The position numbers were made by a program, and so were the translations under genes. Below, piece by piece: positions 1 through 15,577 of a stretch of DNA of 64,000 nucleotides. The stretch comes from Bacteroidales bacterium (GTDB lineage Bacteria > Bacteroidota > Bacteroidia > Bacteroidales > Marinilabiliaceae). The stretch spans positions 1 through 64,000 of the forward strand of contig JAKSLH010000005.1 in the NCBI GenBank assembly GCA_024401335.1. The letters are read 5' to 3'. The notes beneath the pieces are model-generated. The model ran no database searches, was not told where the DNA came from, and saw only the letters and a list, made by a program, of their open reading frames with translations. Within the stretch, counting starts at the first letter, position 1, and the number at the start of each line of letters is the position of its first letter.

Positions 1-101
1 ACGTTGAGATGATGGGCTTCCTCGGCATTGGTAACAACCCAATGGTAGGTTGCTCTGTAGCTTGCGCCGTTAACGTTGACCTCGCACTCAACAAGAAGTA
101 A
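1..101 (+). CDS. 3' end of an unidentified gene (partial, cut by window start)
   Basis: The last 32 codons before a TAA at 99-101 read ...GFLGIGNNPMVGC... and end in ALNKK. Codon choice (GTT, CTC, AAC, AAG) resembles the highly expressed glyS in this window, so the parent gene may be strongly expressed (inference). I do not recognise the family from this tail. The same sequence recurs exactly at 14022-14125. Whether this copy belongs to the intact gene cannot be decided, because the window starts inside it. Confidence 0.6.
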   Translation, partial: VEMMGFLGIGNNPMVGCSVACAVNVDLALNKK

Positions 102-104
102 TCT
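1..104 (+). repeat. Direct repeat copy A flanking the fructan locus
   Basis: Bases 1-104 are identical, base for base, to 14022-14125. The match covers the last 32 codons, the stop and three bases after it, and ends abruptly at 104 (next base G here, C in copy B). The left limit is unknown because copy A begins at the window edge, so 104 bp is a minimum length. Confidence 0.97.
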
Positions 105-130
105 GACTTAGAGCAGTTTTACATACTATA

Positions 131-166
131 AATAGCCTTTGGTTACATATCGTACCAAAGGCTATT
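131..166 (+). terminator. Rho-independent terminator after the partial gene
   Basis: A perfect 12-bp stem (AATAGCCTTTGG at 131-142 with its complement at 155-166) closes a 12-base loop and ends in a T run. It lies about 30 bp after the stop at 101. It differs completely from the terminator that follows repeat copy B. It faces the end of the fructan operon and could also stop minus-strand transcripts. The rest of 167-323 shows nothing I can name. Confidence 0.85.
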
Positions 167-323
167 TTTTGTATTCACCAACTACCTTACCTTGCTTGAG
201 CATCGTATCAAGATGATGACATTGCCGTTGAGTATACTTAATTACTATCTGCATCAAAGATAAAAAGAAGGCCATACTTGCATCGCTACAAATACGGCCT
301 AACAAACAAACTAACCGAAGCTT

Positions 324-1220
324 TTATATAGTATGCGGGTTGTATGCTGGCATAGCACCATTCTGTGTGCAGACGAATGCTGACACCTTAACTGCAGTCT
401 TGTGAGCCTCTTCGATGGTCTTGCCGTTGAGCAGAGAGGCGATGAACGAACCAGTGAACGAGTCGCCTGCACCGACAGTATCGGCCACGGTCACCTTAGG
501 CGTTGGCTGGAACGAGAACTTGCCATCGGCCGAGAAGACATAGCTGCCATCGGTGCCACAGGTGAGGATAAGCATCTTGATGCCATAGCGACGTATCATG
601 TCGTTGCATATCTCCTTCACCTCATCATCGAGCATATCATCGGCGCACTCCTTGCCAGTAAGCATCTGGCTGACGACAACAAGCTCCTCATCGTTGATCT
701 TGAGTATGTCGCACATCTCAAACGACTTTTCGATAATCTCTTTGGTATAGAACGACTGGCGGAGATTGATGTCGAACACCTTGAGCGAATCGGCAGGCAT
801 CGAGGCGATGAACTTGCTGATGGTGTTGCGACTCACCTCGTTGCGCTGAGCAAGCGATCCCCAACATACGGCACGTGTCTGGCTAGCAAGGGTGGCAAGC
901 TCATCGGTGAAAGGAATGTTGTCCCACGCCACGTTTTGCATTATGTCGTATTGCGGAATGCCCTGCTTGTCGAGCTTCACCTGCACTGTGCCAGTAGGGT
1001 ATGGGACAACAGAGAGACGGTTGTTGACATTCTTCGAAGCAAAGACATCGACTATCTCACGACCGAGGTCATCGTCGCCAATAGCGCTAACGGCACAACC
1101 ATTGAGGCCAAACTGAGAGACATGATATGCGAAGTTGGCAGGAGCACCACCTATCTTACGACCTTCAGGCAAGCAATCCCAGAGTGCTTCACCTATACCT
1201 ACAACAATATTATTATTCAT
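324..1220 (-). CDS. Fructokinase, PfkB/ribokinase family
   Basis: This predicted 298-residue cytoplasmic sugar kinase would phosphorylate the fructose released by the fructanases. The N-terminal PfkB signature GGAPANF is at about residues 24-30. The C-terminal signature DTVGAGDSF is at 247-255, with catalytic base Asp253. I chose the start at 1220 (MNNNIVVGIGE); a longer frame exists but would run well into the permease gene. With this start it overlaps the 3' end of the permease by 8 bp, which suggests translational coupling. It is the last gene of the fructan operon. Its place next to the permease matches BT1757 in the B. thetaiotaomicron fructan locus. The fructose preference is inferred from context. 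Confidence 0.93.
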   Translation of the reverse strand: MNNNIVVGIGEALWDCLPEGRKIGGAPANFAYHVSQFGLNGCAVSAIGDDDLGREIVDVFASKNVNNRLSVVPYPTGTVQVKLDKQGIPQYDIMQNVAWDNIPFTDELATLASQTRAVCWGSLAQRNEVSRNTISKFIASMPADSLKVFDINLRQSFYTKEIIEKSFEMCDILKINDEELVVVSQMLTGKECADDMLDDEVKEICNDMIRRYGIKMLILTCGTDGSYVFSADGKFSFQPTPKVTVADTVGAGDSFTGSFIASLLNGKTIEEAHKTAVKVSAFVCTQNGAMPAYNPHTI

Positions 1221-2370
1221 TAGTTTCTGATTTGAGAGAGTAAAACAAAAGATAGACAACACCCAACGTCATCACGAGCACAGCGCCAATTTGGCCTATA
1301 GCATCGCTTGCGAAGCCCATTATGAGTGGGAACACTGTGCCGCCAAAGATGCCCGTAATCATAAGTCCGGAAATCTCGTTCTGACTGCTTGGCTTAGAGA
1401 GTATGGCACGCGAGAAGCAGATGGAGAACACATTGGAGTTGCCGAAACCTACGAGCGCTATGGCTGCATAGAGCACTGCCTTGCTCTCTCCTATCGCCAT
1501 GCCTATCATAGAGAGAAGCATAGCCACAACACTGATTATGAGGAATGTGCGACCTGATATCTTACTGAGAATGAATGAACCCGAGAAGCATCCTGCTGTG
1601 CGGAAGATGAAGTAGAGGCTTGTGGCAAAACCTGCCTCATTGAGCGACATGCCCAGACGCTCGATAAGCAGCTTAGGAGCTGTAGTGTTTGTGCCTACGT
1701 CGATGCCCACATGGCACATGATGCCGAAGAAGCAGAGCAGCACAAACTTATCGCCAAGCAGCTTGAAGCAGTCGGCCACACCCGAAGCCTTAGTCTGCTG
1801 GTCTTCATTGATGCTCGTAGCACCGAGAGCAATGATGGCGATGATAGCTATCACCATATAGACAGGGAACAGCACTCGCCAGTCGAGACCAAAAGAAGGT
1901 ATGGCATGAGTGGCACCCCACATGGCGATATATGGCGCTAGGAACGATGCTATGGCTTTCACAAACTGACCGAAAGTGAGCGTGCTGGCATAGCGTTCGC
2001 CACCGACGATGTTGTTGACCAGCGGATTGAGCGACGTCTGCATAAGTGCGTTGCCAATGCCGAGCAGAGAGAAAGCGATGAGCATTGTCGTATATCCATT
2101 GTCGAAAATAGGAATGAGCAACGAAAGGAAAGTCATCACAAGGCTGAGCACAACGGTGTTCTTACGTCCTATCTTGTTCATGAGCAAGCCCGTAGGCACT
2201 GCAAAGAGCAGGAACCAGAAGAAGACGAGAGAAGGGAATATGTTGGCCTGAGCATCGGTCAGACTGAGATCGGCCTTCACATAGTTGGACGCAATGCCGA
2301 CAAGGTCGACAAATCCCATGACGAAGAAACAAAGCATCACAGGGATTATTGCAAGTCTGTTAGTTTTCAT
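1213..2370 (-). CDS. MFS hexose (probable fructose) permease, FucP/GluP type
   Basis: This 385-residue protein has about 12 hydrophobic segments and belongs to the fucose/glucose-galactose:H+ symporter branch of the MFS. It has the loop MNKIGRKNT after the second helix and conserved NEISGLMITGIFGG near the C terminus. It probably imports fructose across the inner membrane for the kinase that follows. Its start codon overlaps the stop of the upstream GH32 gene (ATGA, 2367-2370), a sign of tight translational coupling. Synteny matches BT1758. A truncated paralogue of its C-terminal third is at 43062-43400. Confidence 0.92.
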   Translation of the reverse strand: MKTNRLAIIPVMLCFFVMGFVDLVGIASNYVKADLSLTDAQANIFPSLVFFWFLLFAVPTGLLMNKIGRKNTVVLSLVMTFLSLLIPIFDNGYTTMLIAFSLLGIGNALMQTSLNPLVNNIVGGERYASTLTFGQFVKAIASFLAPYIAMWGATHAIPSFGLDWRVLFPVYMVIAIIAIIALGATSINEDQQTKASGVADCFKLLGDKFVLLCFFGIMCHVGIDVGTNTTAPKLLIERLGMSLNEAGFATSLYFIFRTAGCFSGSFILSKISGRTFLIISVVAMLLSMIGMAIGESKAVLYAAIALVGFGNSNVFSICFSRAILSKPSSQNEISGLMITGIFGGTVFPLIMGFASDAIGQIGAVLVMTLGVVYLLFYSLKSETNE

Positions 2371-4028
2371 AGTTTCTCAATTTTTACGTTTTTGAGTGGA
2401 GAATTTGGGAATACAAGGCTTGTCATCACCACTTCACCATTGTTGCCAAACAGCTCGATTGAACTGTTATCGATGAATATGCGGAGTGAAGTAAGCTTGT
2501 TGCGTACTGGTGCTACAGCGTTGACATCGAAGTCAGCGCTGAAGTCTTTGATGCCGCTCTTGCTGCGGTCGCAAGTGAGGGTCATGGCTTTCTGGTCGTA
2601 AGTGAAGACCATCTCCTGTCCCTCGTCGTTGGAAAGACGTATCTTGCAGCTGCCTTTTATCTTTACGTTCTTGTCCAAGCCCTTATTATCATATTCTGGC
2701 GACGGACGGCTTCCCATATATAGCTGCTTGTCTGCACCATAGTAGAGGAAAGGCTCACGGGCTATGCTGTTGGCACTGCGATATTGCATTGTTGGCACAT
2801 CGTTGGCATATTGCCAGTTGCTCATCCAGGCAATCATAGTATGACGACCATCAGGTGCGTTACTAAAACTTACTGTTGCATAATGGTCTTTGCCGTAATC
2901 TTGCCACAACGAATTGCCATTTACATAGCGTGATTCTGAATCGACAGTAAATGTATGGCCATCGAAGTTGCCTATGAAATACTGTGTTGCACTGCCACCA
3001 GCAGGTCCACCAGGATTGATATTGCAGAAAAGCACCCATTTGCTTGTCTTGCCATCGAGAGTGCTTATCTTCATAAGGTCTGGACATTCCCATACGCCAC
3101 CATGGCAGCCCAATTCAGAGCCAAAGCTCGACTCCTCTTTCCAATTCTTCAAGTCGGGTGATGAGTATATACGCATCTCCTGGCCACAGGCGAGGATGAG
3201 ATTCCAAGCTTTTATATCTTCGTTCCAGAACATGTTAGGGTCGCGGAAGTCGGGTATGTCGGAAGTGAGAATAGGATTGCCTGCATATTTAGTAAATGTC
3301 TGTCCACCATCAACCGAGTAAGCAAGCGACTGGCACTGCACATCGCCAGCACTGGTATATAGTGCCACAACAGCGCCCTTGCCAAAGCCTGCAGTCCCCT
3401 CTTTGTCGACTACACACGAGCCAGAGAAGATAGAGCCAAGTGCATCGGGAGCGATAGCTATCCCTTCGTCATTCCAATTGATGAGGTCGGTACTCGTAGC
3501 GTGTGCCCAGTTCATATTGCCCCACATCGAGCCGTAAGGATTATACTGGAAGAAAAGGTGCCACTTGCCATCGAGATAGAACATGCCATTAGGGTCGTTC
3601 ATCCAGCCATAGGCAGGTGTATGGTGAAAAGCAGGGCGGAAAGCCTCTTTGTTTGATTTATCGAATGAATCGCTAAGTTTGAATTCGCTCATGCAAGCAG
3701 TCTTGGCATAGTCACCCACATGAGTTATAATAGTTATTTCGTTGCCACGGAACTCGTCAAGAAGCACTGGCATGTAATAGTCTACATGTCCCCTTGCAAG
3801 TCTGACATAGAGATTGCGTCGGAGATCGTTGTTGACGATAATCTGCATGCGAGCCTCGTCGGCCTTCTCTTCTATAGGCAGAAGGAGGTACTTGCTCTGC
3901 TCGTTGGCATCGATGCGGATGGCTATGTTGCCACCAGCAAGCGGCTCTGGACGCACGTTCTTGTCGGCTGCAAAGTTCAGCACAGAACTTAATGCGAAGC
4001 AGATTGCCACGAAAAATCTTTTATTCAT
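2367..4028 (-). CDS. GH32 fructanase with N-terminal accessory domain
   Basis: This 553-residue secreted glycoside hydrolase family 32 enzyme is expected to release fructose from fructan or sucrose-type substrates. A cleavable signal peptide (about residues 1-20, no lipobox cysteine) precedes an extra N-terminal domain of about 110 residues (21-130), as in the DUF4980-GH32 enzymes of Bacteroidetes. The five-bladed catalytic domain follows. The GH32 triad is visible: nucleophile Asp145 (WMNDPNG), transition-state stabiliser Asp263 (FRDP) and acid/base Glu314 (WECPD). The signal peptide suggests a periplasmic location, complementing the lipoprotein GH32 upstream. Linkage preference (levan or inulin, exo or endo) cannot be read from the sequence. 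Confidence 0.93.
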   Translation of the reverse strand: MNKRFFVAICFALSSVLNFAADKNVRPEPLAGGNIAIRIDANEQSKYLLLPIEEKADEARMQIIVNNDLRRNLYVRLARGHVDYYMPVLLDEFRGNEITIITHVGDYAKTACMSEFKLSDSFDKSNKEAFRPAFHHTPAYGWMNDPNGMFYLDGKWHLFFQYNPYGSMWGNMNWAHATSTDLINWNDEGIAIAPDALGSIFSGSCVVDKEGTAGFGKGAVVALYTSAGDVQCQSLAYSVDGGQTFTKYAGNPILTSDIPDFRDPNMFWNEDIKAWNLILACGQEMRIYSSPDLKNWKEESSFGSELGCHGGVWECPDLMKISTLDGKTSKWVLFCNINPGGPAGGSATQYFIGNFDGHTFTVDSESRYVNGNSLWQDYGKDHYATVSFSNAPDGRHTMIAWMSNWQYANDVPTMQYRSANSIAREPFLYYGADKQLYMGSRPSPEYDNKGLDKNVKIKGSCKIRLSNDEGQEMVFTYDQKAMTLTCDRSKSGIKDFSADFDVNAVAPVRNKLTSLRIFIDNSSIELFGNNGEVVMTSLVFPNSPLKNVKIEKL

Positions 4029-4055
4029 AACGGTATAGTTTGATTGTTTGTTTTT

Positions 4056-5576
4056 TTATTTCCAAATGCCTTCAAGTGTGCGGAAACTGCCAATATTGGC
4101 GTTGCCGTCGACCTTAACAGCATTATAGATAGAGCTTGGGAATACGAGGTTTGTCAGACTCGTTGTTCCATCTTCGGTAATTACCTCAACAGACGACCTG
4201 TCGATGAAAATGTCGATTGTCAGTTCTGATGCAGCAGATCGGATTGGTGCCTGGGCTGCAGGTATAGAGAACGAGCCATTGAACGAGCTTGCACCTGTCT
4301 GCGCATTGCGACGTGCTATCAACAAGCGAGCAACACCCTTGACATCTATATCAAAGTGCTCTCCTTGCCCATTGGCAAGTTGAATAGTGTGATTAGAGGC
4401 CATATCAACCGTCACCTTCACATGATAGGCTTGAGCTGATGGCAGATTGCCGTCTATTGCCTTCCAATCACTTGCAATGGCATCTATTTCGCCAACTACC
4501 TTACTGCACAGATAGTTGTTGCCATCTATGTTGGTAAGTGAGAGTTCGCGTGGTAGTGTCATTGCCGATCGCCATGGGTCGCAAGGTACATCGCCTGCAT
4601 AGTTCCAATTGTTCATCCAGCCTATAAGCACTTTTCTGTCGCCTGTATTCGACCATGTGACACCTGCATAGTTGTCCATTCCATAGTCGAGCCACATAGG
4701 GTATTCAGAAGGGTCGGCAACAAACTGTTCGCCATCGAAATCGCCTATGAAATACATTGTGCCGCTACCACTAACAGGACCTCCTGGATTGGTGCTGACA
4801 ATGAGCACCCACTTGTCACCCAGCTTTATCAAGTCGGGACATTCCCATTGGCCTTTGTTGCAACGTACATACTCTGGAGTATTGAATGAACTTAAGAAAT
4901 GCCAACTCTTGAGGTCGTTGGAAGCATAGAAATCTATCGCATACTGCCATCCACGAGCGAGCGACATAATCCATTGCTTTGAGTCGGCATGCCAGAACAC
5001 TTTTGGGTCGCGGAAGTCGTCCTTATCGGTATTAGCGATGATAGGGTTGCCTGCAAACACATTGAACGTCTTACCATGATCTGTGCTATAAGCCATCGAC
5101 TGCTGCTGACGACTGCCACTGCTTGTATAGAGACAGACCATAGCATCCTTGCCAAAGCCAGCCGTACCTTCATGGTCGATTACTGCACTGCCCGAGAAGA
5201 TGTCGCCAAGTTTGTCGCGTGTCAGAGCTACATCCTGCTCATTCCAATGGATGAGGTCGGTGCTCGTCGCATGGCCCCACGACATATTGCCCCAGTTGTT
5301 AGCGTAGGGATTATACTGATAAAACAGATGCCATGTGCCGTTGTCATATACCATGCCGTTAGGATCGTTCATCCAGTTTTTAGCTGGAGTGAAATGCACC
5401 TGTGGTCTATATTTGTCGGTATAGAGATTAGGCTTTTCTACCTGTGTGGTAGTGTCGGTGGCCTCTGAGTTATTGATATCGATGGGTTCAGTAGTGCCAC
5501 TATCATCCTTACAGCCAGTCTGCATCATGATGCAACATGCTGCTATAGACAATATTCGATAAGAGGTCATGTTCAT
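4056..5576 (-). CDS. GH32 fructanase, probable surface lipoprotein
   Basis: This 506-residue lipoprotein fructanase has a signal peptide ending in MMQTGC (lipid-bearing Cys22) and a spacer rich in Asp, Ser and Thr. The GH32 catalytic domain carries nucleophile Asp71 (WMNDPNG), stabiliser Asp190 (FRDP) and acid/base Glu245 (WECPD), and a C-terminal beta-sandwich follows. I placed the start at 5576 (MNMTSY), which gives a normal lipoprotein signal; an in-frame extension further upstream lacks one. It sits next to the surface glycan-binding gene, like the surface endo-levanase BT1760, so endo action at the cell surface is the likely role (inference). It shares much sequence with the GH32 downstream but lacks that enzyme's N-terminal domain. 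Confidence 0.92.
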   Translation of the reverse strand: MNMTSYRILSIAACCIMMQTGCKDDSGTTEPIDINNSEATDTTTQVEKPNLYTDKYRPQVHFTPAKNWMNDPNGMVYDNGTWHLFYQYNPYANNWGNMSWGHATSTDLIHWNEQDVALTRDKLGDIFSGSAVIDHEGTAGFGKDAMVCLYTSSGSRQQQSMAYSTDHGKTFNVFAGNPIIANTDKDDFRDPKVFWHADSKQWIMSLARGWQYAIDFYASNDLKSWHFLSSFNTPEYVRCNKGQWECPDLIKLGDKWVLIVSTNPGGPVSGSGTMYFIGDFDGEQFVADPSEYPMWLDYGMDNYAGVTWSNTGDRKVLIGWMNNWNYAGDVPCDPWRSAMTLPRELSLTNIDGNNYLCSKVVGEIDAIASDWKAIDGNLPSAQAYHVKVTVDMASNHTIQLANGQGEHFDIDVKGVARLLIARRNAQTGASSFNGSFSIPAAQAPIRSAASELTIDIFIDRSSVEVITEDGTTSLTNLVFPSSIYNAVKVDGNANIGSFRTLEGIWK

Positions 5577-5654
5577 TGTGGTTAGTTTTGTTTGTTGTTT
5601 ATGGGCAAGACAGGTTTCACTCACCTGTCTTGCCACAATAAACACATTCTTCTT

Positions 5655-7160
5655 TTATCTTGTCTTCAGGTACTCGAGTGAGTTCTTGGCCAACTGAAGA
5701 ACATTATCCTGATATGGATTGTTCTTTGGATAAGCGCTCTTGTCTGGTGTTCCGTCAGCATTCTTGAGCGAGAACTCGCAACCACCATTACCAACGCAGA
5801 GTATAGTACCCTTGAAATCTGTGTCGCCCTGACGAGCTTCCCAGATGTTGAGCTGGCTTACCCAATCGATCTGACTATCCCATGTCGCAAGAGGATAGAT
5901 GCCATAGACCTCAGTGAGAGTGTTGTAGCAAGCCTCTTCCTGATTGCCAATGCCTGTGAGAGCCGATGGGTAGTTAAAGAACAGACAGTTGTGGTCTTCG
6001 GTCCAACCTGCACCCTTCATAGCGATGAGCTTGGTACGATCTGTCGTCTCAACTTCAAGACCGCGATATATAGGGTGATCAGAAAAATCCTTCTTGAAAC
6101 GGCTACCAGGATGGAGAGCAACTGCCATCTTCCATGTATCTGGGTTCCATCCGCCTTCTCCTGTACCTATGGCATGATCGTTACCAACAATAGAGCCTTC
6201 AGGAATACGACCAAGAGTCTCTACCCATGGCATTGCATGGCTCCAAAGGAGAAGTGAACCTCCATTCTTATACCATTCGCTTACCGCAGGAGTAGCTGCT
6301 TTAACGACATCTGGCATATTGAGCACTTCGCCTTCACCAACACCTTCGAGGTCGCGAAGCCAGAAGAGAACACGGAATGGAGCAAGGTCTTCGGCGCTCT
6401 CTATGTCGCTGAAGCTGACGTAGCGTGCTGTTGGATATTCGCTGTGGAGCCAAAGCCATGCACTTGCTTCATCGTCATCACCATCAGCTACACACTCGTC
6501 GGCAGTAGCGTAGACACCGAGGAAACCGATAAGCGTCTTACCTATCTTAAGCGATGTTGCAGTAGAGAGCGACGAACCCTTGGCATTCTTGGCAACCAAT
6601 GTCACTGTCCACTCCTCACCATCGATAACATCGGAGATGATGTAGCTTGTTGCTGTGCCGCTTATTGTCTCGTTTATTGTACGTCCCTTGCCATTGTCTG
6701 CTGTCAGGATGATATTGTCGGTCTCCGATGGCTGAGCCCATTCAACCTTGGCATCGTAACCATTTGCCTTGTCGAGCTGGCTCATGCCCAAACCACTGAT
6801 CATATCAGCACCCTCACGCTTATACTTGACGATAGAACCATTAGAGAGATTTATACCGTCGGTCACCTTGAGAACATATGTGAAGTCGATGTTAGTATTG
6901 ACAGTAGAATGAACATACTGATTGCCGTCTACGACTACCGAACCGTCATTAGTCTCTCCCTTATAGCGAGTAACCTGCATCTGAAGGCCATTGCTGAGTG
7001 CAGGCCATGAGAGGATGTAGTCGTCGCCTACAAGCTTTCCCTCGATTGTAGAGGCGTCGATGCTGCTGAGAATCATCTCTGAGCGCTCGTAGTCTTTGTC
7101 CTGGCACGATGACAGACAAACTGCTGCCAATGCCAGAATATATAATGATATCTTTTTCAT
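5655..7160 (-). CDS. Surface glycan-binding lipoprotein (DUF4960-like, BT1761 position)
   Basis: This 501-residue lipoprotein has signal peptide and lipobox CLSSC (Cys19). The N-terminal half looks like SusE-type or fibronectin-like beta domains (about residues 30-200; motifs such as DYILSWPAL and AKVEWAQPS). The C-terminal half (about 205-500) has Trp-rich and Gly-rich blocks (VLFWLRDLEG, GSLLLWSHAMPW, CVGNGGCEF) resembling DUF4960 proteins. It lies 18 bp after susD, the place held by the levan-binding protein BT1761. It probably captures fructan at the cell surface for SusCD. Family assignment is from memory of the motifs and synteny. No catalytic motif was seen. Confidence 0.8.
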   Translation of the reverse strand: MKKISLYILALAAVCLSSCQDKDYERSEMILSSIDASTIEGKLVGDDYILSWPALSNGLQMQVTRYKGETNDGSVVVDGNQYVHSTVNTNIDFTYVLKVTDGINLSNGSIVKYKREGADMISGLGMSQLDKANGYDAKVEWAQPSETDNIILTADNGKGRTINETISGTATSYIISDVIDGEEWTVTLVAKNAKGSSLSTATSLKIGKTLIGFLGVYATADECVADGDDDEASAWLWLHSEYPTARYVSFSDIESAEDLAPFRVLFWLRDLEGVGEGEVLNMPDVVKAATPAVSEWYKNGGSLLLWSHAMPWVETLGRIPEGSIVGNDHAIGTGEGGWNPDTWKMAVALHPGSRFKKDFSDHPIYRGLEVETTDRTKLIAMKGAGWTEDHNCLFFNYPSALTGIGNQEEACYNTLTEVYGIYPLATWDSQIDWVSQLNIWEARQGDTDFKGTILCVGNGGCEFSLKNADGTPDKSAYPKNNPYQDNVLQLAKNSLEYLKTR

Positions 7161-7178
7161 GATTTGAATATTAAACTA

Positions 7179-8921
7179 TTAGTATCCCTTGTTTTGAGTG
7201 TAGAGACCTGGAACATAGAACATCTGGTTGTATGGAAGTGGCCAATACTCGTTCTTGCCAGCTGTAAAATGTGCGTCCTTATAGTACTTGGCATATTCCT
7301 GACCATCGTAGTTGTCGTTAACTTCCGACTCAAAGAACTTGTTGAGTGTCTCTGATGCCATGCCCCAACGGCGAAGGTCGAAGAAACGGCTGCTCTCCAT
7401 GCCGAGTTCAATACGACGCTCCCAACGAAGAGCCTGACGAGCATAATCCTTGTTAGGGAAGTCGGTATAGGTTGCAATGTCGCAATAGTCTTGAGCATAG
7501 GCGATATGCTTCATGATTGAGTTCTTAGCACGCATGCGAATATCGTTGATGATAGAGCGAGCGTCGTTGAGATTGTCTGTCTCGATAAGTGCCTCTGCAC
7601 GCATAAGCATCACATCGCTGAAACGGAAGATATAGTCGTTCATTGCAAATGACTGCCATGTGTTCTCCACGTAGGTCTCACCCTGTGAGCGCATTGGCAC
7701 TTCCTTAATTGAAGTATAGTAGCCGTATGTGCTTGGGTTACGCGAGTTGTCCTTTGTCATTGTGAGGTTCTCCTCATATTTGTATGGCCAGCTTGGCATA
7801 CCTACTGTGTGGAACAGACGTGGGTCATACTTCTGAGCTGATGCGACGCCACGCACTGGATATGAGTTATGCTCCTTGTCGTAGTCGTTGAACATTGGCA
7901 GACCATCCTGTGTCTTGAACGCGTTGACGAGGTTCTGTGATGGCTTATGGAAATCCCAGCCCTTCGACCAGATACCCCAGCAGCCGTTGAGAGTGTTCGA
8001 CCAGTTAGCACGTCCCTTCACTGTGTTATCTTCTGTGTAGTGAGATGTCTGAACTGCAAAGACACTCTCCTTAGAGTTCTTGTACTCTGGCAAGAATATG
8101 TCGCCATAGTCTTCGAGATAGCCAAACTGCGAGTTTGCAACTACATCTGTATACTCGATAACCTTGTTCATGTGAGCCTTGTCGACCTTTGAGTAGCCAG
8201 TAGTTGCCTCGTAGCCGTCGCCGTACGCCATATAGAGATGGCACTTAGCCAAGTAGGCTGCCGCTGCAATCTTTGTCACACGACCGCCATCGGTCTGAGT
8301 GGCTGGCAATACGTTATATGCCTCTTCAAAGTCGGCAACAATCTTCTGCATGAGCTGATCGTGAGTCAATTCATCGTTGCGTGTGCTTTCTACGAGGTCG
8401 TTGAGCATAACCGACTCATCGCACCAAGGTACCTGATAGAAGAGTTCGGCAAGCTTGAAGTAGAAGTGTGCACGGATAAATTTCATCTCACCAATTCGCT
8501 GCTTGGTAGTCTCGCTACCGAGCTTGCTGTCGCCATACTGATCGAGAGATACCAATGCTCTGTTGCAACGAGAGATTGCGCAGTAGAGATGATACCAGAG
8601 TTCATCGTTGTGGTCTGGGTTGGCAGCCGTAAGGTTGCTCCAAACCTCTACGCTGTGCCAGTTGGTGTCGTTGGTACCACTACCGCCCTTGAATGCGTCG
8701 TCGCTGGCTACGTCGCCAAATGGCCAGAGGTTGAATGGGTATGTATACCAGCAGTCGCCAAGCATTGCGTATGCCGATGTGCAGAGCTTCTCTGGTTCGC
8801 TGTATGCGAGTTCGTCGTTGATGACACCTGTAGGCGGAACGTCTATGAAGTCATCGCAGCTTGTCAGCGCACCCATGCCGAGCATCGCTGCTGCCATATA
8901 GATATATCTTGTCTTGTTCAT
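7179..8921 (-). CDS. susD: SusD-like outer-membrane glycan-binding lipoprotein
   Basis: This 580-residue RagB/SusD family protein has a signal peptide with lipobox ALTSC (Cys22) followed by DDFIDVPPTG, typical of mature SusD N termini. TPR-like helices follow (for example AISRCNRALVSLDQYG and MKFIRAHFYFKLAELF). The C-terminal signature region includes RFSDVMLMRAEALIE, a long run to RWERRIELGMESSRFFDLRRWG and a final WPLPYNQM. It caps the SusC barrel and presents fructan oligosaccharides for import. It starts 26 bp after susC ends, in the same operon. Confidence 0.95.
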   Translation of the reverse strand: MNKTRYIYMAAAMLGMGALTSCDDFIDVPPTGVINDELAYSEPEKLCTSAYAMLGDCWYTYPFNLWPFGDVASDDAFKGGSGTNDTNWHSVEVWSNLTAANPDHNDELWYHLYCAISRCNRALVSLDQYGDSKLGSETTKQRIGEMKFIRAHFYFKLAELFYQVPWCDESVMLNDLVESTRNDELTHDQLMQKIVADFEEAYNVLPATQTDGGRVTKIAAAAYLAKCHLYMAYGDGYEATTGYSKVDKAHMNKVIEYTDVVANSQFGYLEDYGDIFLPEYKNSKESVFAVQTSHYTEDNTVKGRANWSNTLNGCWGIWSKGWDFHKPSQNLVNAFKTQDGLPMFNDYDKEHNSYPVRGVASAQKYDPRLFHTVGMPSWPYKYEENLTMTKDNSRNPSTYGYYTSIKEVPMRSQGETYVENTWQSFAMNDYIFRFSDVMLMRAEALIETDNLNDARSIINDIRMRAKNSIMKHIAYAQDYCDIATYTDFPNKDYARQALRWERRIELGMESSRFFDLRRWGMASETLNKFFESEVNDNYDGQEYAKYYKDAHFTAGKNEYWPLPYNQMFYVPGLYTQNKGY

Positions 8922-8947
8922 ATTATCTTTTCATTATCGCTTCGTCA

Positions 8948-11900
8948 TTAGAAGCCAAGTTGAACACCGAATGTGAATGAAGTTGTTGTTGGATATGCCC
9001 AGTTTGGATTCTCAGGATCTGAGCATGTCAAGCTGTTCGACTTGAAGGTGAGCAAGTTCTGACCGCTGACATAAACACGAGCCTTTGAAGCATGAATCTT
9101 ATCCATTACACCCTTTGGCATATTGTAGCCAAGCTGAAGAGTACGAAGCTTGAGGTACGATCCGTTTTCTACGTAGTACGAACTTGCGCGTCCCTCATCG
9201 GCAGTGTTGCTTGTTGTAAGGGCAGGAATCTTAGAGTTCTTGTTGTCCATTGTCCAAGCCTTGAGCATACGGTTGCCCTTGTTGCTACCTGCATCGGTGA
9301 TGCTCCAGAAGTCGGTCTGGAATTTCTGGTTGTTATATACATCCTGTCCGGCAACACCCTGCCAGAACATTGTCAAATCAACATTCTTATACGACATCTC
9401 AATGTTCACACCGTATGAGAAGTCTGGCACTGGATTGAAGATCCATGTCTGGTCGTCTGAATTGATGACGCCGTTGCCATCGAGGTCGGCATACTTAAGA
9501 CCACCTACACGAGCACCTGGCTGGCCACTTGCCAACACCTCTTCTTTCGACTGGAACAATCCGTCGGCTACATATCCTACGATAGAACCGTATGGCTTCT
9601 TTGCCTCGATGAGGTTCTCCTTTGAAGTGTGAACATACGAACCTGTTGTTGTAGCAGGGAGGTATGTTACAGTGTTGCGGAAGAAGTCGAGATTGCCGCT
9701 TACCTTGTATGCGAAGCCCGATTCCAACTCATCACGCCAACCGAGGTTCATTTCGAAACCTTTGTTCTTGAGCGATGGACCGTTGATCCAGCTTGCTCCA
9801 CCCTCACCCTTCGAACCGAGGTATGCTGGCGAGATAAGCATATCTGTAATCTCCTTCACGTAGTAATCGGCATTACCGAAGAGGTGATTGTCAATGAGCG
9901 AGAAGTCGATACCGATATTGCTCTGAGTTGTTGTTTCCCACTTGAGGTTAGGGTTTGCCGACTGAGTTGTGCGGAAACCACTTGGGAATATGCCCGAACC
10001 CTGCAAATAGAGGTCGTATGCTGTAGATGTCACACGGTCGTCACCATAGTCTGCGATGAAGATGCTGTAGCGTGCTGTGTTTGATATCTCCTGGTTACCT
10101 GTTCTACCCCACGAGTAACGTACTTTGAGGTCGTTGATCCAGTCGATGCTTTCAAGATGACGGCTTACACGATAGCCGAGGGTTGCTGCTGGGAAGTTAC
10201 CATACTTGTGGTTTTCACCGAAACGGCTTGAACCGTCATGACGAATGGTGAACGATGCAAGTACAAGGTCGTCGAAATTATAGTCGAGCTTGCCAAAGAA
10301 CGAAGCAAGAGCATAACCATGTTCTGCACCATTTACACGCATTGTTCCTGTTGCTGCATCTGGCCACATGTAATCGAGAGTCTCCATTGCGAACTCCTCT
10401 GCATAGCCACTCCAGTCGGTTCTCTTCTGACGATAGATTTCTACACCACCAAGGACATTGGCATGATGAATGTCGGCGAAGTCAACATTGTAAGTGACGG
10501 TGTTCGACCAGTTGATTCGCAAATCATTTGCGTTGCTGAGTGTCGTCGTTGGTGTATTGCTCTGGATGATGTCTGAGTAGAAGGTCTTAGATATCGAGTG
10601 AATGAATGAAGTGTCGAAGTCGATACCAAAATTAGAACGGATTGTAAGTCCCTTGAGAGGAGTGAGGTCAACGAATGCGTTGCCGAAGACTCTCCAGATG
10701 CCGAGCGAGTTGTCTTTGTTCCACACAAGCTCACGCAATGGGTTCTGACGGTCTGACATACCTCCTACAGGACCAGAGAATGTCTTGCCGTCTTCTTCAT
10801 ATACTGGAAGGACTGGAGCCATCTTGAGGGCATTCTCCATTGGAGAGCATCCTACCTGATCGGTATGAGTGATTGTAAGGTTCTCACCGATTGTAAACAC
10901 GTCGTTTACCTTATAGTCGCTATTTAGTCGTGCCGAGAGATTCTGGAAATTGGTATGTTTTAAGATACCATCGTTACGCTTATAGCCGAAAGAGAACATT
11001 GTGCTGCCGTTGTCCGAACCACGACTAAATGTCACATCGTAATTCTGGATAAGACCTGTGCGCGATATTGCATCGAGCCAGTCTGTATCGCTAAAACGCA
11101 TTGTCTTTTTCTGGTTCATGAAGCCATCGTAAAGGCCATTGACTGTGTAGCTGACATACTGGCTTGTCTTAGGGTCGAAAGCCTTAATCTGAGTGCCTGT
11201 CGATGCATTGAGGTCCAAGCCATATACTGCTGCATACTGCACAGGATCCATACCATCGTTGAGCGCTGCCTGAGCCATTGCTGTAGCATATTCGCTTGTG
11301 TTGCTCAGATTCATCATTGTCTGCTTGTTGTAGGTCTGAGCTGTGACATTGGCGTTGACCTCTACATTGACCTTGCCATTGCTCTTCTTGCCTTTCTTGG
11401 TTGTGATGATAATCACACCATTGGCTGCACGGCTACCATATATAGATGCTGAAGCAGCATCCTTGAGCACCTGTATGCTCTCGATATCGGCCGAATTGAG
11501 TGAGTTGAGCGTCTGAGTTGTAGGCATGCCATCGATTACATACAATGGGTCCTGACTTGCGTTGAACGAACCAAAACCACGAATGCGAATCGTTCCTGTG
11601 CCCGATGGTGAACCATCTGTTGTGATTGTCACACCCGAGATACGGCCCTGAAGTGCTCGCATCGGATCTGGGTCGGATGCAGTTGCCAGTGTCTTAGTGT
11701 CAACCACGGCTACCGCACCTGTCAAGTCAGCCTTACGCTGCACCTGATAGCCTGTCACTACCACATCCTCAAGAATGAACTCGTCGACAAGGACGATCTT
11801 CATGTCTGTACCTGGCTGAAGAACCTGGTTCTCGAAGCCTACAAATGATACTGTAATAGTGCTACCTTCTTTTACTTCAAAACTGAAGTTTCCATCGAAA

Positions 11901-12067
11901 TCGGTAACTGTTCCGTTACCAGTTCCTGTTTCAAGGATTGCCGCACCTGGAAGAGGCTGGCCATCCGACTGTGATGTTACGTTTCCGTTGACTTTTATTG
12001 TCTGTCCTGCGACATCACATATAAAGCAAAGGAAAAACGCAACTGTGATTAGAATCGTTTTTTTCAT
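8948..12067 (-). CDS. susC: SusC-like TonB-dependent outer-membrane transporter
   Basis: This 1039-residue SusC/RagA protein has a signal peptide (MKKTILITV...), a carboxypeptidase-like regulatory domain (about residues 30-105), a TonB-box region (EDVVVTGYQVQ), a plug with LQGRISGVTI and PLYVIDGMP, and a long beta-barrel ending in FTFGVQLGF. A terminal phenylalanine is usual for outer-membrane barrels. The start is placed at 12067; the longer in-frame option at 12100 would put a promoter element inside the coding region and spoil the signal peptide. It is the first gene of the fructan operon and should import fructo-oligosaccharides with SusD. Confidence 0.96.
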   Translation of the reverse strand: MKKTILITVAFFLCFICDVAGQTIKVNGNVTSQSDGQPLPGAAILETGTGNGTVTDFDGNFSFEVKEGSTITVSFVGFENQVLQPGTDMKIVLVDEFILEDVVVTGYQVQRKADLTGAVAVVDTKTLATASDPDPMRALQGRISGVTITTDGSPSGTGTIRIRGFGSFNASQDPLYVIDGMPTTQTLNSLNSADIESIQVLKDAASASIYGSRAANGVIIITTKKGKKSNGKVNVEVNANVTAQTYNKQTMMNLSNTSEYATAMAQAALNDGMDPVQYAAVYGLDLNASTGTQIKAFDPKTSQYVSYTVNGLYDGFMNQKKTMRFSDTDWLDAISRTGLIQNYDVTFSRGSDNGSTMFSFGYKRNDGILKHTNFQNLSARLNSDYKVNDVFTIGENLTITHTDQVGCSPMENALKMAPVLPVYEEDGKTFSGPVGGMSDRQNPLRELVWNKDNSLGIWRVFGNAFVDLTPLKGLTIRSNFGIDFDTSFIHSISKTFYSDIIQSNTPTTTLSNANDLRINWSNTVTYNVDFADIHHANVLGGVEIYRQKRTDWSGYAEEFAMETLDYMWPDAATGTMRVNGAEHGYALASFFGKLDYNFDDLVLASFTIRHDGSSRFGENHKYGNFPAATLGYRVSRHLESIDWINDLKVRYSWGRTGNQEISNTARYSIFIADYGDDRVTSTAYDLYLQGSGIFPSGFRTTQSANPNLKWETTTQSNIGIDFSLIDNHLFGNADYYVKEITDMLISPAYLGSKGEGGASWINGPSLKNKGFEMNLGWRDELESGFAYKVSGNLDFFRNTVTYLPATTTGSYVHTSKENLIEAKKPYGSIVGYVADGLFQSKEEVLASGQPGARVGGLKYADLDGNGVINSDDQTWIFNPVPDFSYGVNIEMSYKNVDLTMFWQGVAGQDVYNNQKFQTDFWSITDAGSNKGNRMLKAWTMDNKNSKIPALTTSNTADEGRASSYYVENGSYLKLRTLQLGYNMPKGVMDKIHASKARVYVSGQNLLTFKSNSLTCSDPENPNWAYPTTTSFTFGVQLGF

Positions 12068-12093
12068 TCGATAAATTAATTTGATTACTGATG

Positions 12094-12101
12094 CAAACAT
12101 A
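12094..12101 (-). promoter_or_regulatory. Bacteroidetes -7 box of the fructan operon
   Basis: On the minus strand this reads TATGTTTG, matching the Bacteroidetes -7 consensus TAnnTTTG, 27 bp before the susC start codon. That predicts a transcription start near 12087 and a leader of about 20 nt. No convincing -33 TTTG was found, as expected of an activator-dependent promoter. Confidence 0.65.
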
Positions 12102-12131
12102 TAAAGGATGTTAAAGGATGGCTAAAAGTAT

Positions 12132-12188
12132 TGTTTCATCCATTGTCAAAATTGTTTCAATGAAACATTACTGATAGTAAATGAAACA
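12132..12188. promoter_or_regulatory. Four-heptamer symmetric operator upstream of susC
   Basis: Plus-strand heptamers TGTTTCA at 12132-12138 and 12153-12159, and their complements TGAAACA at 12161-12167 and 12182-12188, form one large dyad centred on 12160. The inner pair makes a perfect 15-bp palindrome with a single central base. Each outer heptamer is 21 bp from its inner neighbour, two helical turns. The array spans roughly -45 to -101 from the predicted start, a typical activator position. The AraC-domain regulator encoded just upstream is the likely ligand (inference). Confidence 0.75.
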
Positions 12189-12218
12189 TCTGTTATAGAA
12201 AGCAGCCAGTAACTATTA

Positions 12219-12248
12219 AAAAAGCATGCCTGATGGTGCATGCTTTTT
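12219..12248 (-). terminator. Terminator of the fructan regulator gene
   Basis: A perfect 11-bp stem (AAAAAGCATGC at 12219-12229, complement at 12238-12248) with an 8-base loop lies 8 bp beyond the regulator's stop codon. On the minus strand it is followed by a short T-rich tail. It separates the regulator transcript from the susC operon, so the two are separate transcription units. Confidence 0.85.
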
Positions 12249-12256
12249 ATGTTTTT

Positions 12257-13846
12257 TTATTTTCTCAATGACTCTGTTGGGTTGTGACCGAAGTAATCTT
12301 TATAGCATTTTGCGAAATATGATGGCGACGAAAAGCCTACCTCATAGGCAACTTCGCTAATCGACTTGTCTGTTTCGCGCAACATCTTATATGCTTTGTT
12401 GAGTCGACGGGCTCTGAGCGCTTCATTCGGACTCAATCCGCACGATGCTTTTGTTCGGCGATAGAGCTGCACTCGGCTCAACCCCATCTCTGCTCCTATC
12501 ATCTCGACAGTAAGCTCAGAATTGTCGATGTTCTCATCAAACACTTTGTTGAGCCTATCCATGAAGAAGTTTGTCTCATCTTCTATCGTTGTCTTATCCT
12601 CCTCACCATGCTCCTCACATCCTTGCGCCTCTATCAGTTTGTCGCGCTCTGCTTCAAGCTGGTCTCGTTGGCGTTCAAGTTTCTCTTTCTGCTCCGAGAG
12701 CTCATTTTTTTGTATCTCTAGCACCTCTTTCTGCATCTCGAGCTGGTCGTTGAGCCTTGTCTTGGCATTATAGGCTGTTATTGACACAAAGAGCAGTATG
12801 CACACCAGCACTGTTATGATAATGAATGTAACTAGCACTATACGCTGCGACTCATAATCCTTGAAGAAGTCATCGAGCTTGCTGTTCAGAAACTCTATCT
12901 TGCCATTCTGCTCGTCGATATGACCGGCGTGTATGTTCATCAGATGCACATTCGACTTATTGACGACACTCGTCTGGAATATATTGTCGCGCTCGTATGG
13001 CTTGCCCGACAAGATGCAATCGGCTATGAATATGGCCTTGTCTCCACCTGTCTGATAGAGAAACGAAGCGTTGAGCGTGCCATCGGCTATGCGGCTTATG
13101 CCTATGCGCTCATCGAGCAAGGCGTCAACGCCTATATATGGTATCTGCGCATTGTTGCCTCCTCGTTTCAAAGCTGATTTTTTTGCTCCTATAGCCATCC
13201 TGTCGTTATAGGCAAAGACAAGGTCTACATCACCTATCGCTTCACCGATGCTGTCCATTATAGCCTCGGCCTTGTCTTCCTGCCAGTCGGCACAGAAGCT
13301 GCTGACGATATTGATATCGTCATATTTGTCTATCACCTCATGAAAACCCTTATGACGTTCTTGCGATGATGAAGAACCATACAATCCCTCTATTTCAACT
13401 ATTCGGCCTTTGCCCTTAAGCAGTTCTGCTACATAGTTGCCGGCCAACCGACCTACTTCTACGTTATCTCCACCGATAAACGCTGTGTATTTGTTACTGT
13501 TTATCTTTCGGTCAATCAGCACTACGGGTATGCCTGCATCAAATGCCTTCTCTATAACTGGGCGCAACGGCTCAGCCTCATTAGGCGCTACGACTATCAG
13601 ATCTACCTTGCGGCTTATGAATTGCTCGATGACATCTATCTGTTCCTGCGAATTGTCCGACGTAGAATGTATCTCTACCTCCATGTCATTGTGAAAGAAG
13701 GCTTCGCGTAGCATCTCGTTGTTCATCTGTGTGCGCCACTCGTCGACACTGCATTGAGAGACGGCCACTATCTTCTTAGGCGTAGGCGTGCACGAAGTAA
13801 GAATGGCTAATATTAAAAGAGTTATCAGAAGGGCTATTCTATTCAT
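12257..13846 (-). CDS. Transmembrane sugar-sensing AraC-family regulator (PBP-TM-AraC)
   Basis: This 529-residue one-component regulator has a signal or lipobox-like N terminus (ILTSC, Cys19) and a type I periplasmic sugar-binding domain of the RbsB/LacI kind (about 25-315; motifs VDLIVVAPNE, GIPVVLIDRKI, AFIGGDN and FAYNDRMAIGA). A single membrane helix (336-358), a charged coiled coil (about 365-409) and an AraC double helix-turn-helix (about 430-529, ending YFAKCYKDYFGHNP) follow. There is no histidine kinase or receiver, unlike the hybrid two-component regulator BT1754 of the comparable B. thetaiotaomicron locus. Sugar binding outside the membrane could be passed through the coiled coil to the DNA-binding dimer. 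It very likely activates the adjacent fructan operon. Confidence 0.9.
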   Translation of the reverse strand: MNRIALLITLLILAILTSCTPTPKKIVAVSQCSVDEWRTQMNNEMLREAFFHNDMEVEIHSTSDNSQEQIDVIEQFISRKVDLIVVAPNEAEPLRPVIEKAFDAGIPVVLIDRKINSNKYTAFIGGDNVEVGRLAGNYVAELLKGKGRIVEIEGLYGSSSSQERHKGFHEVIDKYDDINIVSSFCADWQEDKAEAIMDSIGEAIGDVDLVFAYNDRMAIGAKKSALKRGGNNAQIPYIGVDALLDERIGISRIADGTLNASFLYQTGGDKAIFIADCILSGKPYERDNIFQTSVVNKSNVHLMNIHAGHIDEQNGKIEFLNSKLDDFFKDYESQRIVLVTFIIITVLVCILLFVSITAYNAKTRLNDQLEMQKEVLEIQKNELSEQKEKLERQRDQLEAERDKLIEAQGCEEHGEEDKTTIEDETNFFMDRLNKVFDENIDNSELTVEMIGAEMGLSRVQLYRRTKASCGLSPNEALRARRLNKAYKMLRETDKSISEVAYEVGFSSPSYFAKCYKDYFGHNPTESLRK

Positions 13847-14021
13847 CTGTGAACAATTATGTGTTTGAACAGCAATTTACATTATTTTTTGCCTTTAATT
13901 GCAAAGTGACATGCAAAAAAAACGAGGCTACCTATTAGAAAGATCGCATCGCTTCAAGTTCGTATTTTTATACGCAAGAGCTCTGATGCACAATTCACCG
14001 GCTTTTCATTAGTTCCTGCAC
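13847..14021. other. Intergenic left part of a 370-bp gap
   Basis: The gap between the regulator and the next gene runs from 13847 to 14216. A weak -7-like TCACTTTG on the minus strand at 13902-13909 could serve the regulator. In the frame of repeat copy B, codons stay open from 13910 up to the repeat, so the gene remnant may extend further left than the 104 bp that can be compared. No other gene or site was recognised here. Confidence 0.4.
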
Positions 14022-14125
14022 ACGTTGAGATGATGGGCTTCCTCGGCATTGGTAACAACCCAATGGTAGGTTGCTCTGTAGCTTGCGCCGTTAACGTTGA
14101 CCTCGCACTCAACAAGAAGTAATCT
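14022..14125 (+). repeat. Direct repeat copy B (3' gene remnant) at the far end of the fructan locus
   Basis: Identical to bases 1-104, same orientation, 14021 bp away. It contains the last 32 codons and stop (14120-14122) of the same unidentified gene, with no visible start, so here it appears to be a non-functional remnant unless the reading frame extends upstream. The divergence point is three bases past the stop codon. It marks the right boundary of the fructan region. A direct repeat made of a gene's 3' end is the usual footprint of site-specific integration, though no integrase is present. Confidence 0.95.
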
Positions 14126-14148
14126 CTGAATAGAGACTATTGATATGA

Positions 14149-14172
14149 GCCTTCACTCTTCCGAGTGAGGGC
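14149..14172 (+). terminator. Terminator after repeat copy B
   Basis: A 10-bp stem with one G-T pair (GCCTTCACTC at 14149-14158, partner at 14163-14172), a 4-base loop and a long T run. It lies 27 bp after the stop in copy B. If copy B marks the old end of the parent gene, this would be its original terminator. Confidence 0.85.
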
Positions 14173-14195
14173 ATTTTTTTTACAAAAACAAAGAG

Positions 14196-14203
14196 TATCT
14201 TTG
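14196..14203 (+). promoter_or_regulatory. Bacteroidetes -7 box
   Basis: TATCTTTG, a perfect TAnnTTTG match followed by CATC, about 14-22 bp before the possible start codons of the beta-propeller lipoprotein. Confidence 0.7.
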
Positions 14204-14225
14204 CATCATAACCAAAATGACGAGC

Positions 14226-15389
14226 ATGAAAAAATACACGACATTAGCCCTCATGCTAGCATGCATGGCATGCAGCGAGGAAAAAGCAAACGACAGCACA
14301 CTGACAAAGCTAAAAATCAAGGACCTAGAGCACGAAGAAACAATAGAGTTCTCTGAGCTATTCTCCGACGAGAGATTAGTATGCCTTGAAACAAACGACA
14401 ACGGTCTCATTGGAGAAGACATCCAAGGCATACGATTAATCAACGACAAGATCTACATCTTCGACTGGAGCAAAATCCTAATCTTCGACAAAGATGGTCA
14501 TTACCTAAACAACATAGACAAACGCGGACAAGGGCCAGAAGAATACACCAACATCTTCGACTTCGAAGTAAACAGCAATGGTGACATAATAGTATTGCCC
14601 GGAAGCAAAAAGCTAATGTTCTATGATGCAGACGGTCATTTCAAGAGAAGCATCGACCTCAAACTTAACGCATCGTCGTTGCAGCTCATCAACGACAACG
14701 AGGCGCTACTATACCATGATGTGGTCACGAACCTCGCTGATGACACACTTAAAACAGTTGTCACAAAGCTCAACTTCACAACAGGAGAAAGCATAACATG
14801 CAAAACAGGAGGAATGGGTGGCATAAGAGACTTCCTAGTTGTCGTAGGAGGTTCAAAATTCAAGAAAAGCACAAGCAATAGCAATGTATATCTGTCAGAC
14901 ACAATGTGCGACACATTATTCTTACTGCAAGACGACAAAATGGTTCCTTATATATACTTCGATTATGACGGCAAGAATTTCCCATTTTCGAAATACGGAA
15001 GTGAGAATATCGGGGAATACATAGAAAACATAAATCAGGGAACATGGCCAAATGGGACAGCATTGTTCTTCAGCGAGACAGAAGACCAATACATGTACAC
15101 ATACAGACACAAAGACACGCCCCATTTCGTATGCTATCCCAAATCGGGAACAAACATCCGCAACTTCTCTAACGTCAAGGACAGCAAATACCTGTTTGGC
15201 ATGGACAGCCTCGCATATAACGGCATACATTCAAACAACGACTTCGTGATAATATCATTGCAACCATATGCCATCGAAGATTATGCACAGAACAACCTGA
15301 CCAACAGACAAAAAGAAGAGCTGATGAAAAGAATTAACTATACAGGCGACGATCAGAATCCTGTGCTTCTAATAGCCAAAATAAAGTAA
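14226..15389 (+). CDS. Predicted 6-bladed beta-propeller lipoprotein
   Basis: This protein of about 387 residues has a short lipoprotein signal (MKKYTTLALMLACMAC). Repeated beta-strand blocks of propeller type follow, such as DKIYIFDWSKILIFDKDGHYLNNIDKRG-like blades and the RGQGPEEYTNI motif typical of the '6-bladed beta-propeller' proteins of Bacteroidetes (often in outer-membrane regulation loci). An alternative start three codons upstream (14217) is equally possible. The molecular function of this family is unknown to me. It has its own promoter and lies just outside the fructan repeat boundary. Confidence 0.75.
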   Translation: MKKYTTLALMLACMACSEEKANDSTLTKLKIKDLEHEETIEFSELFSDERLVCLETNDNGLIGEDIQGIRLINDKIYIFDWSKILIFDKDGHYLNNIDKRGQGPEEYTNIFDFEVNSNGDIIVLPGSKKLMFYDADGHFKRSIDLKLNASSLQLINDNEALLYHDVVTNLADDTLKTVVTKLNFTTGESITCKTGGMGGIRDFLVVVGGSKFKKSTSNSNVYLSDTMCDTLFLLQDDKMVPYIYFDYDGKNFPFSKYGSENIGEYIENINQGTWPNGTALFFSETEDQYMYTYRHKDTPHFVCYPKSGTNIRNFSNVKDSKYLFGMDSLAYNGIHSNNDFVIISLQPYAIEDYAQNNLTNRQKEELMKRINYTGDDQNPVLLIAKIK

Positions 15390-15424
15390 CATAATTCACA
15401 TTATTCAAAAATAAGTAGAATTTG

Positions 15425-15456
15425 TTTGGAGGAAACGAAAAAACTCTCTATCTTTG
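15425..15456 (+). promoter_or_regulatory. Promoter of the initiator tRNA
   Basis: A -33 element TTTG at 15425-15428 and a -7 box TATCTTTG at 15449-15456, separated by 20 bp, form a full Bacteroidetes vegetative promoter about 40 bp before the tRNA. Confidence 0.8.
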
Positions 15457-15500
15457 CATCGCAATTCAGAAGTAACCTACTTCGGTAGACAAAGATACAT

Positions 15501-15573
15501 TGCGGGGTGGAGCAGTTGGCAGCTCGTTGGGCTCATAACCCAAAGGTCATTCGTTCGAGTCGGGTCCCCGCTA
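15501..15573 (+). tRNA. tRNA-fMet (CAT), initiator
   Basis: A cloverleaf with anticodon CAT in loop CTCATAA. Initiator features are visible: bases 1 and 72 do not pair (T15501 and T15572) and three G-C pairs (GGG/CCC) close the anticodon loop. The acceptor stem G2-G7 pairs with C66-C71, and the T arm is closed by two G-T pairs around TTCGAGT. CCA is not encoded. Confidence 0.93.
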
Positions 15574-15577
15574 CTAC

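Follow-up and report, generated by a model that had tools for sequence, protein, structure and literature searches.

We analyzed a stretch of 64,000 nucleotides (hereafter the window) from a Bacteroidales bacterium of the Marinilabiliaceae (GCA_024401335.1, contig JAKSLH010000005.1, positions 1 to 64,000). The first 14 kb of the window hold a fructan locus enclosed by two copies of the 3' end of the gene for the GGGtGRT protein (PF14057). This locus is probably an island flanked by attachment (att) sites and lacking an integrase of its own, in the manner of a cis-mobilizable element (CIME), that was integrated site-specifically at the 3' end of the GGGtGRT gene. The genome, referred to below as G000, is a draft of 2.7 Mb in 33 contigs and is 84.6% complete.

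A fructan island between two copies of a gene end

Bases 1-104 of the window are identical to bases 14022-14125 in the same orientation, and the match ends there on the right. The TAA stop codons lie at 99-101 and 14120-14122, and the repeat thus runs three bases beyond the stop, as a preliminary description of this DNA had stated. An exact match of 104 bases at a spacing of 14 kb is not a chance event. The repeat encodes the last residues of the GGGtGRT protein.

That description had advised extending the left copy (copy A) leftward to see whether it belongs to the full gene. The window itself offers no room for this, because contig C29 (182,158 bp) has its physical end there, and the contig break cuts the repeat. 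A fitting gene was found on another contig: family positions 1 to ~295 (of 327) occupy the outermost part of contig C24 and read toward its end, and comparison with a relative (G009) indicates that ~8 bases are absent between the end of C24 and copy A. Most likely, copy A is the real gene end and the contig was broken at the repeat, the putative join of C24 and C29 being drawn from this fit. The shared block would be ~115 bp in G000 if the 8 unknown bases are counted. The right copy (copy B) extends further to the left, since 13981-14021 is also homologous to the GGGtGRT gene, with the first ~30 bases diverged. It comprises only the last ~46 codons, and the whole-gene repeat that would have pointed to gene duplication is not what we observed.

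1..104, + strand: copy A, the attL-like repeat on the left, with the 3' end of GGGtGRT (family positions up to ~295 of 327 on C24, join proposed from fit)
13981..14125, + strand: copy B, the attR-like repeat on the right, with a 3' fragment of GGGtGRT (first ~30 bases diverged, last 104 equal to copy A)

The unit between the two copies is 14,021 bp long and has eight open reading frames (ORFs) taken as genes. All eight were assigned to fructan use with Pfam, which agrees with the earlier view that a fructan regulator and operon fill the interval, with neither integrase nor transposase:

324..1262, - strand: PfkB-family sugar kinase (fructokinase)
1213..2370, - strand: MFS transporter, probably for fructose uptake (predicted substrate)
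2367..4028, - strand: GH32 enzyme with DUF4980
4056..5645, - strand: GH32 enzyme
5655..7160, - strand: DUF4960 protein at the SusE/F position
7179..8921, - strand: SusD-like binding protein
8948..12100, - strand: SusC-like TonB-dependent transporter
12257..13846, - strand: regulator with a periplasmic sugar-binding domain and an AraC-type helix-turn-helix (HTH)

The scanned ORFs of the island show no remnants of the integration or transfer modules of integrative and conjugative or integrative and mobilizable elements. The whole island had no match among plasmids and a single one among phages (149 bases, 77.8%, within a GH32 gene). Its GC content is 47.4%, compared with 44.6% in the right flank within the window and 44.1% in the sampled contigs. 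Base composition decides nothing on the origin of the island, because contig C24 also has 47.1% GC.

Pfam found neither a histidine kinase nor a receiver domain in the regulator. In some loci of Bacteroides, Phocaeicola, and Paraprevotella, the matches to the two halves of this regulator are separated by 1.2-1.3 kb, as though the regulator described here had no kinase part. The same genome has a second fructokinase 3' end at a contig edge (C8, bases 1-176, locus L011), 93.75% identical to window 324-499.

We compared the 1.73 Mb of fetched sequence with itself (direct repeats of at least 80 bp and at least 90% identity; some loci overlap) and found two direct-repeat pairs above 99% identity, both at gene 3' ends: the pair described here and one in genome G001. 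Five further pairs had 91-94% identity. In G001 (contig C17, SUWW01000001.1), the 3' end of a fructan regulator is duplicated over 374 bp (373 identical) at a distance of 17.8 kb (L082 ~11983-12356, L083 ~9798-10171). The insert has genes that look by eye like YD-repeat genes, and fructan genes lie beyond.

The same site in related genomes

Among 15 genomes surveyed for the genus, nine have the GGGtGRT gene (split between contig ends in G011), and an extra 3' fragment accompanies it in two of these nine, G000 and G008. G009, a metagenome-assembled genome (MAG) that is 85% complete, has a single GGGtGRT 3' end followed by a different gene and then by the stretch of tRNA-Met, kinase-like gene, and S46 peptidase seen in the window. 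A close fructan regulator was not found in G009, where the best match (36%) falls within the HTH part. By this comparison, we take G009 to be an empty site. This is the arrangement that the preliminary description had suggested looking for in relatives, and the opposite one, two copies in a genome devoid of the fructan locus, does not occur in G009.

G008 (MAG Horse_feces93, 74% complete; the named genomes of the genus are MAGs) represents a second species of the genus. It carries the same fructan island between the same GGGtGRT ends, joined to its own diverged right flank. The two islands are 96.35% identical over 14,060 bp (98.3% in 87-11750, 92.8% in 11751-13000, 69.4% in 13001-13500, and 88.5% in 13501-14125). 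For comparison, the median identity outside the island is 70.6% in 44 aligned stretches of at least 400 bp, totaling 64 kb of the sampled contigs; the highest of these is the nifU-GGGtGRT operon, with 94%, and the next two have 88%. At third codon positions, four of the seven operon genes were compared and are 92-96% identical; the values are 85% for GGGtGRT, 65% for the regulator, and 42% for the nearby S46 peptidase. Since identities of the island and of its third codon positions are far above those of the other stretches, the comparison indicates that the island was shared horizontally and recently between the two species, which are only distantly related.

Two stretches depart from this picture. 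The nifU-GGGtGRT operon (L010 1-1631 versus L071 150-1780), with 94% identity against a median of 71% elsewhere, may have been exchanged too; it may have travelled with the island or may merely evolve slowly. In the sensor part of the regulator, window 13001-13500 is 69% identical to G008 beside island DNA at 98%, which could reflect mosaic exchange or fast change.

In G008, contig C7 holds the full gene and copy A and continues into the island. It has exactly 55 bp in common with the island contig C37, apparently an assembler k-mer overlap. The uninterrupted repeat is 126 bp in this genome. Among 36 named regulator loci, a GGGtGRT 3' end stands beside the regulator in one, that of G008 (L090). 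As copy A is at a contig end in G000 and near one in G008, one could suspect that the structure was created by the assembly of contigs ending in a repeat. However, copy B lies inside a contig in both species, joined to species-specific flanks, and the same kind of structure occurs in a single-contig genome (G326, see below). We thus consider an assembly artefact highly improbable.

The sequences following the two repeat copies differ, and each forms a strong hairpin followed by a run of U (shuffle z-scores of -6.0 on the left and -4.4 on the right). Downstream of copy B, the sequence aligns with its counterpart at copy B of G008 (z 4.7) and weakly with the one that follows the single gene in G009 (z 2.2). 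In contrast, the sequence downstream of copy A does not align with those after copy B, after copy B of G008, or after the gene of G009 (z 1.2, 0.6, and -0.8); it is island sequence common to G008. The earlier proposal that the right-hand terminator is the original one and that the left-hand one came with the island looks correct from these alignments. The left hairpin was missed when 1-400 were scanned with a simple terminator pattern, for which the sole match was on the minus strand at 300-269.

130..167, + strand: terminator-like hairpin, presumably of island origin and now situated after the GGGtGRT gene (folding; in G008, copy A is likewise followed by the start of this sequence)
269..300, - strand: terminator-like site after the fructan operon (pattern match)
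14149..14172, + strand: terminator hairpin to the right of the island, native-looking for the target gene (folding, alignment)
14217..15389, + strand: DUF5128 beta-propeller gene (Pfam); its slot has a short ORF in G008 and an ORF resembling an ion channel by eye in G009
15501..15574, + strand: tRNA-Met, within the first stretch common to the right flanks of G008 and G009

From the end of copy B (in G009, of the single gene) to tRNA-Met, window 14123-15500, each of the three genomes has a different gene. Rfam and ARAGORN found only three tRNAs in the window. The tRNA-Met at 15501 was ruled out as the integration target, as it lies 1.4 kb from copy B.

Recurrent use of the gene end and an adjoining recombinase

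We searched 393 Bacteroidales genomes and found the GGGtGRT gene in 78, with more than one match in seven. In two of the seven (G246 and G431), the matches seem to stem from a gene divided over contig ends and from a broken gene; both genomes were left out, leaving an extra copy in five of the 78 genomes (G000, G326, G277, G381, and G444), a count for which no control gene was surveyed as a yardstick. In all five, the extra copy is 3'-terminal, downstream, and in the same orientation. With G008, from the genus search, extra 3' copies are found in six genomes of four families.

The DNA between the copies varies. In G326, a complete genome in one contig, the 12.6 kb between them include two Phage_integrase-type genes and a DUF3871 gene. 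The copies are 3.2 kb apart in G277, with small secreted proteins (by eye); 1.8 kb apart in G444, with an AAA_14/DUF4143 protein; and 1.35 kb apart in G381, with a toxin-antitoxin-like pair (by eye).

These data bear on the simplest alternative, a segmental duplication of the gene end, which would account for both copies having one gene as their source. Duplication would be expected to affect a whole gene or a random part of it and to be present without an insert as well, which is not what we found: G009 is an apparent empty site, the intervening DNA has a horizontal signal, and the extra copy is the 3' end in all five genomes. We give this explanation very little credence.

A candidate enzyme stands next to the gene end in G326, where a tyrosine recombinase of 405 aa (Arm-DNA-bind_5, SAM_5, Phage_integrase) starts 345 bp after the GGGtGRT stop. 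In viral contigs, we found 11 loci with GGGtGRT and nine with a relative of this enzyme. Four contigs have a relative of 67-77% identity placed 0.3-0.4 kb past the GGGtGRT 3' end, and a fifth has one of 56% in the opposite orientation. Two of the four (3300032167_005224 and 2898051414_000005) carry two such enzymes each with a GGGtGRT 3' fragment between them, i.e., tandem elements. Among the 393 genomes, a close copy of the enzyme was found only in G326 itself, the next best having 40% identity (the best four candidates were scored in most genomes), and the best match among phages and plasmids was 39%. G012, a genome of the same genus as the window, has a relative of 71% identity that is cut by a contig edge.

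The GGGtGRT C-terminus also occurs in seven phage records, of which the four inspected are unverified, unannotated virome scaffolds that we used as no evidence, and in ten plasmid records; of the two retrieved, one is unannotated, and the annotated one has the full gene followed by an ordinary regulator.

Comparing the copies of each pair delimits a candidate crossover core. A 26-bp block (window 30-55) is identical between copies A and B in six of seven pairs, with mismatches just outside it (from window base 33, at -4 and +23 in G444 and at -7 and +23 in G277), and window 36-55 is identical in all seven. The delimitation is descriptive, as the block was read from the same pairs.

36..55, + strand (26-bp version 30-55): candidate crossover core, copy A
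14057..14076, + strand (26-bp version 14051-14076): candidate crossover core, copy B

For the same reason, a Fisher test of third-position mismatches inside the 26-bp block (1/56) versus outside it (32/243; p 0.007) is circular and was not relied on. A 5-bp inverted repeat with an 8-bp spacer in the core was seen by eye only and is too weak to count.

Mode of integration and relation to known systems

The duplicated gene end had been read from the start as the attL and attR sites left by integration into a coding gene. This reading is now supported by the single copy in G009, the partial nature of copy B, and the tyrosine-recombinase elements at the same 3' end. The island would have been integrated site-specifically into the chromosome at the GGGtGRT 3' end, bringing its own copy of the gene end and a terminator. 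The target gene would have stayed whole at the left, with copy A, and the displaced original end would remain at the right as copy B. An enzyme of the 405-aa type may have made the insertion. With no integrase and att-like flanks, the island would thus work like a cis-mobilizable element, movable only with an integrase-bearing relative adjacent to it or in the same cell, and it may still be able to leave. As the island has no integrase, either of two earlier suggestions may account for its movement: transport with an element that was later lost, or recombination between repeats.

Several observations weigh against site-specific integration. None of the eight island ORFs is a recombinase or a transposase. 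The 405-aa type of integrase was not found in G000 (none at 1e-20) or in G008 (29-32% only), MAGs that are 85% and 74% complete, and there was no PF00589 match on C29 and C24 of G000 or on C7 and C37 of G008; serine recombinases were not searched genome-wide. G012 has no extra GGGtGRT copy despite its close relative of the enzyme, and five GGGtGRT-bearing viral contigs have no such enzyme in the part fetched. The repeat exceeds the usual core size of tyrosine recombinases, the 26-bp block is interrupted by one mismatch in the seventh pair of copies, from a viral contig, and identity between the copies continues beyond the stop codon in G277 and in one viral contig, as homologous recombination would give. 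The fragment in G444 scores under the family cut-off. G381 is an untidy case: copy A begins at a contig edge, copy B is without its last codons, and contigs C9 and C30 (L169 and L168) share 109 bp and then differ in the 3' end, the gene on C9 being full. The divergence of these two contigs might reflect a strain mixture or two genes.

The alternative is that RecA joined a fragment or circle carrying the island and a GGGtGRT 3' end to the recipient gene, with no site-specific enzyme involved in the sharing between G000 and G008. The absence of any recombinase on the island is in line with this, as are the length of the repeats in both genomes (~115 and 126 bp) and the position of the nifU-GGGtGRT operon, at 94% identity, above all other aligned stretches. 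Moreover, window base 56 is T in both copies of G000 and A in both copies of G008, as if they had been homogenised within the cell, but this argument concerns a single site. Homologous recombination also leaves unexplained the repeated hits on this 3' end in four families and the dedicated adjoining integrase. We regard it as rather unlikely to be the sole explanation of the sharing; site-specific integration and homologous recombination may both be true, at different times.

How does the island compare with described types of elements? CIMEs and their accretion are described in the available part of PMC5704250. As in CIMEs, the island has, judged from sequence, attL- and attR-like sites at its two ends and no integration or transfer genes between them; these sites include a block also found in the integrase-bearing elements at this gene. 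Integrase-bearing elements at the same site and tandems, also known from CIMEs, were found in other hosts (G326 and viral contigs), not in G000. It differs from the CIMEs covered there in its target, a protein gene beside an iron-sulfur scaffold gene, in its Bacteroidales host and fructan cargo, and in being known from sequence alone. An integrative and mobilizable or conjugative element was rejected, as these have their own integrase, and so was a composite transposon, as the ends are GGGtGRT 3' ends and the island ORFs include no transposase.

The ssrA islands of Dehalococcoides are similar in having catabolic cargo, direct repeats of a 3' end, and tandem islands; according to the portions consulted, 15 of them have no integration module and are possibly cis-mobilizable in the view of their authors (PMC3146451). 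They use a serine recombinase and a tmRNA target, whereas a tyrosine recombinase and a protein gene are implicated here. The 10K genomic island of Riemerella anatipestifer, in the excerpt at hand, likewise has a tyrosine integrase and direct repeats as attL and attR, perfect over 53 bp and with excision shown; unlike the fructan island, it has a tRNA target (tRNA-Arg) and its own integrase (PMC6764341). Polysaccharide loci on mobile DNA are known from gut Bacteroidetes, where 47 loci with SusC and SusD are reported on chromosomal mobile elements in the section available to us (PMC6907783), whereas the island described here has no mobility genes of its own.

Integration is not mentioned in the GGGtGRT literature as far as covered, namely partial texts on expression, proteomics, iron response, and gene lists, with few subscription papers. 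The accessible part of a table on B. thetaiotaomicron gives the GGGtGRT-NifU pair as iron-responsive and, elsewhere, a tyrosine recombinase beside a DUF3871 gene.

We tentatively propose a broader reading, possible though doubtful at present: the GGGtGRT 3' end could be a standing docking site at which integrase-free cassettes ride as satellites of a dedicated integrase family, with a nutrient locus of ~14 kb exchanged between gut species as one att-flanked cassette. The cargo would then include the fructan locus, a toxin-antitoxin-like pair, an AAA ATPase, and small secreted proteins. In the present case, two species appear to have shared a complete-looking polysaccharide-utilization locus in the form of a compact unit devoid of mobility genes, and element finders based on integrases would overlook such an island. 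The analysis also names, for Bacteroidales, a putative attachment site in a coding gene and a candidate group of recombinases, both directly testable.

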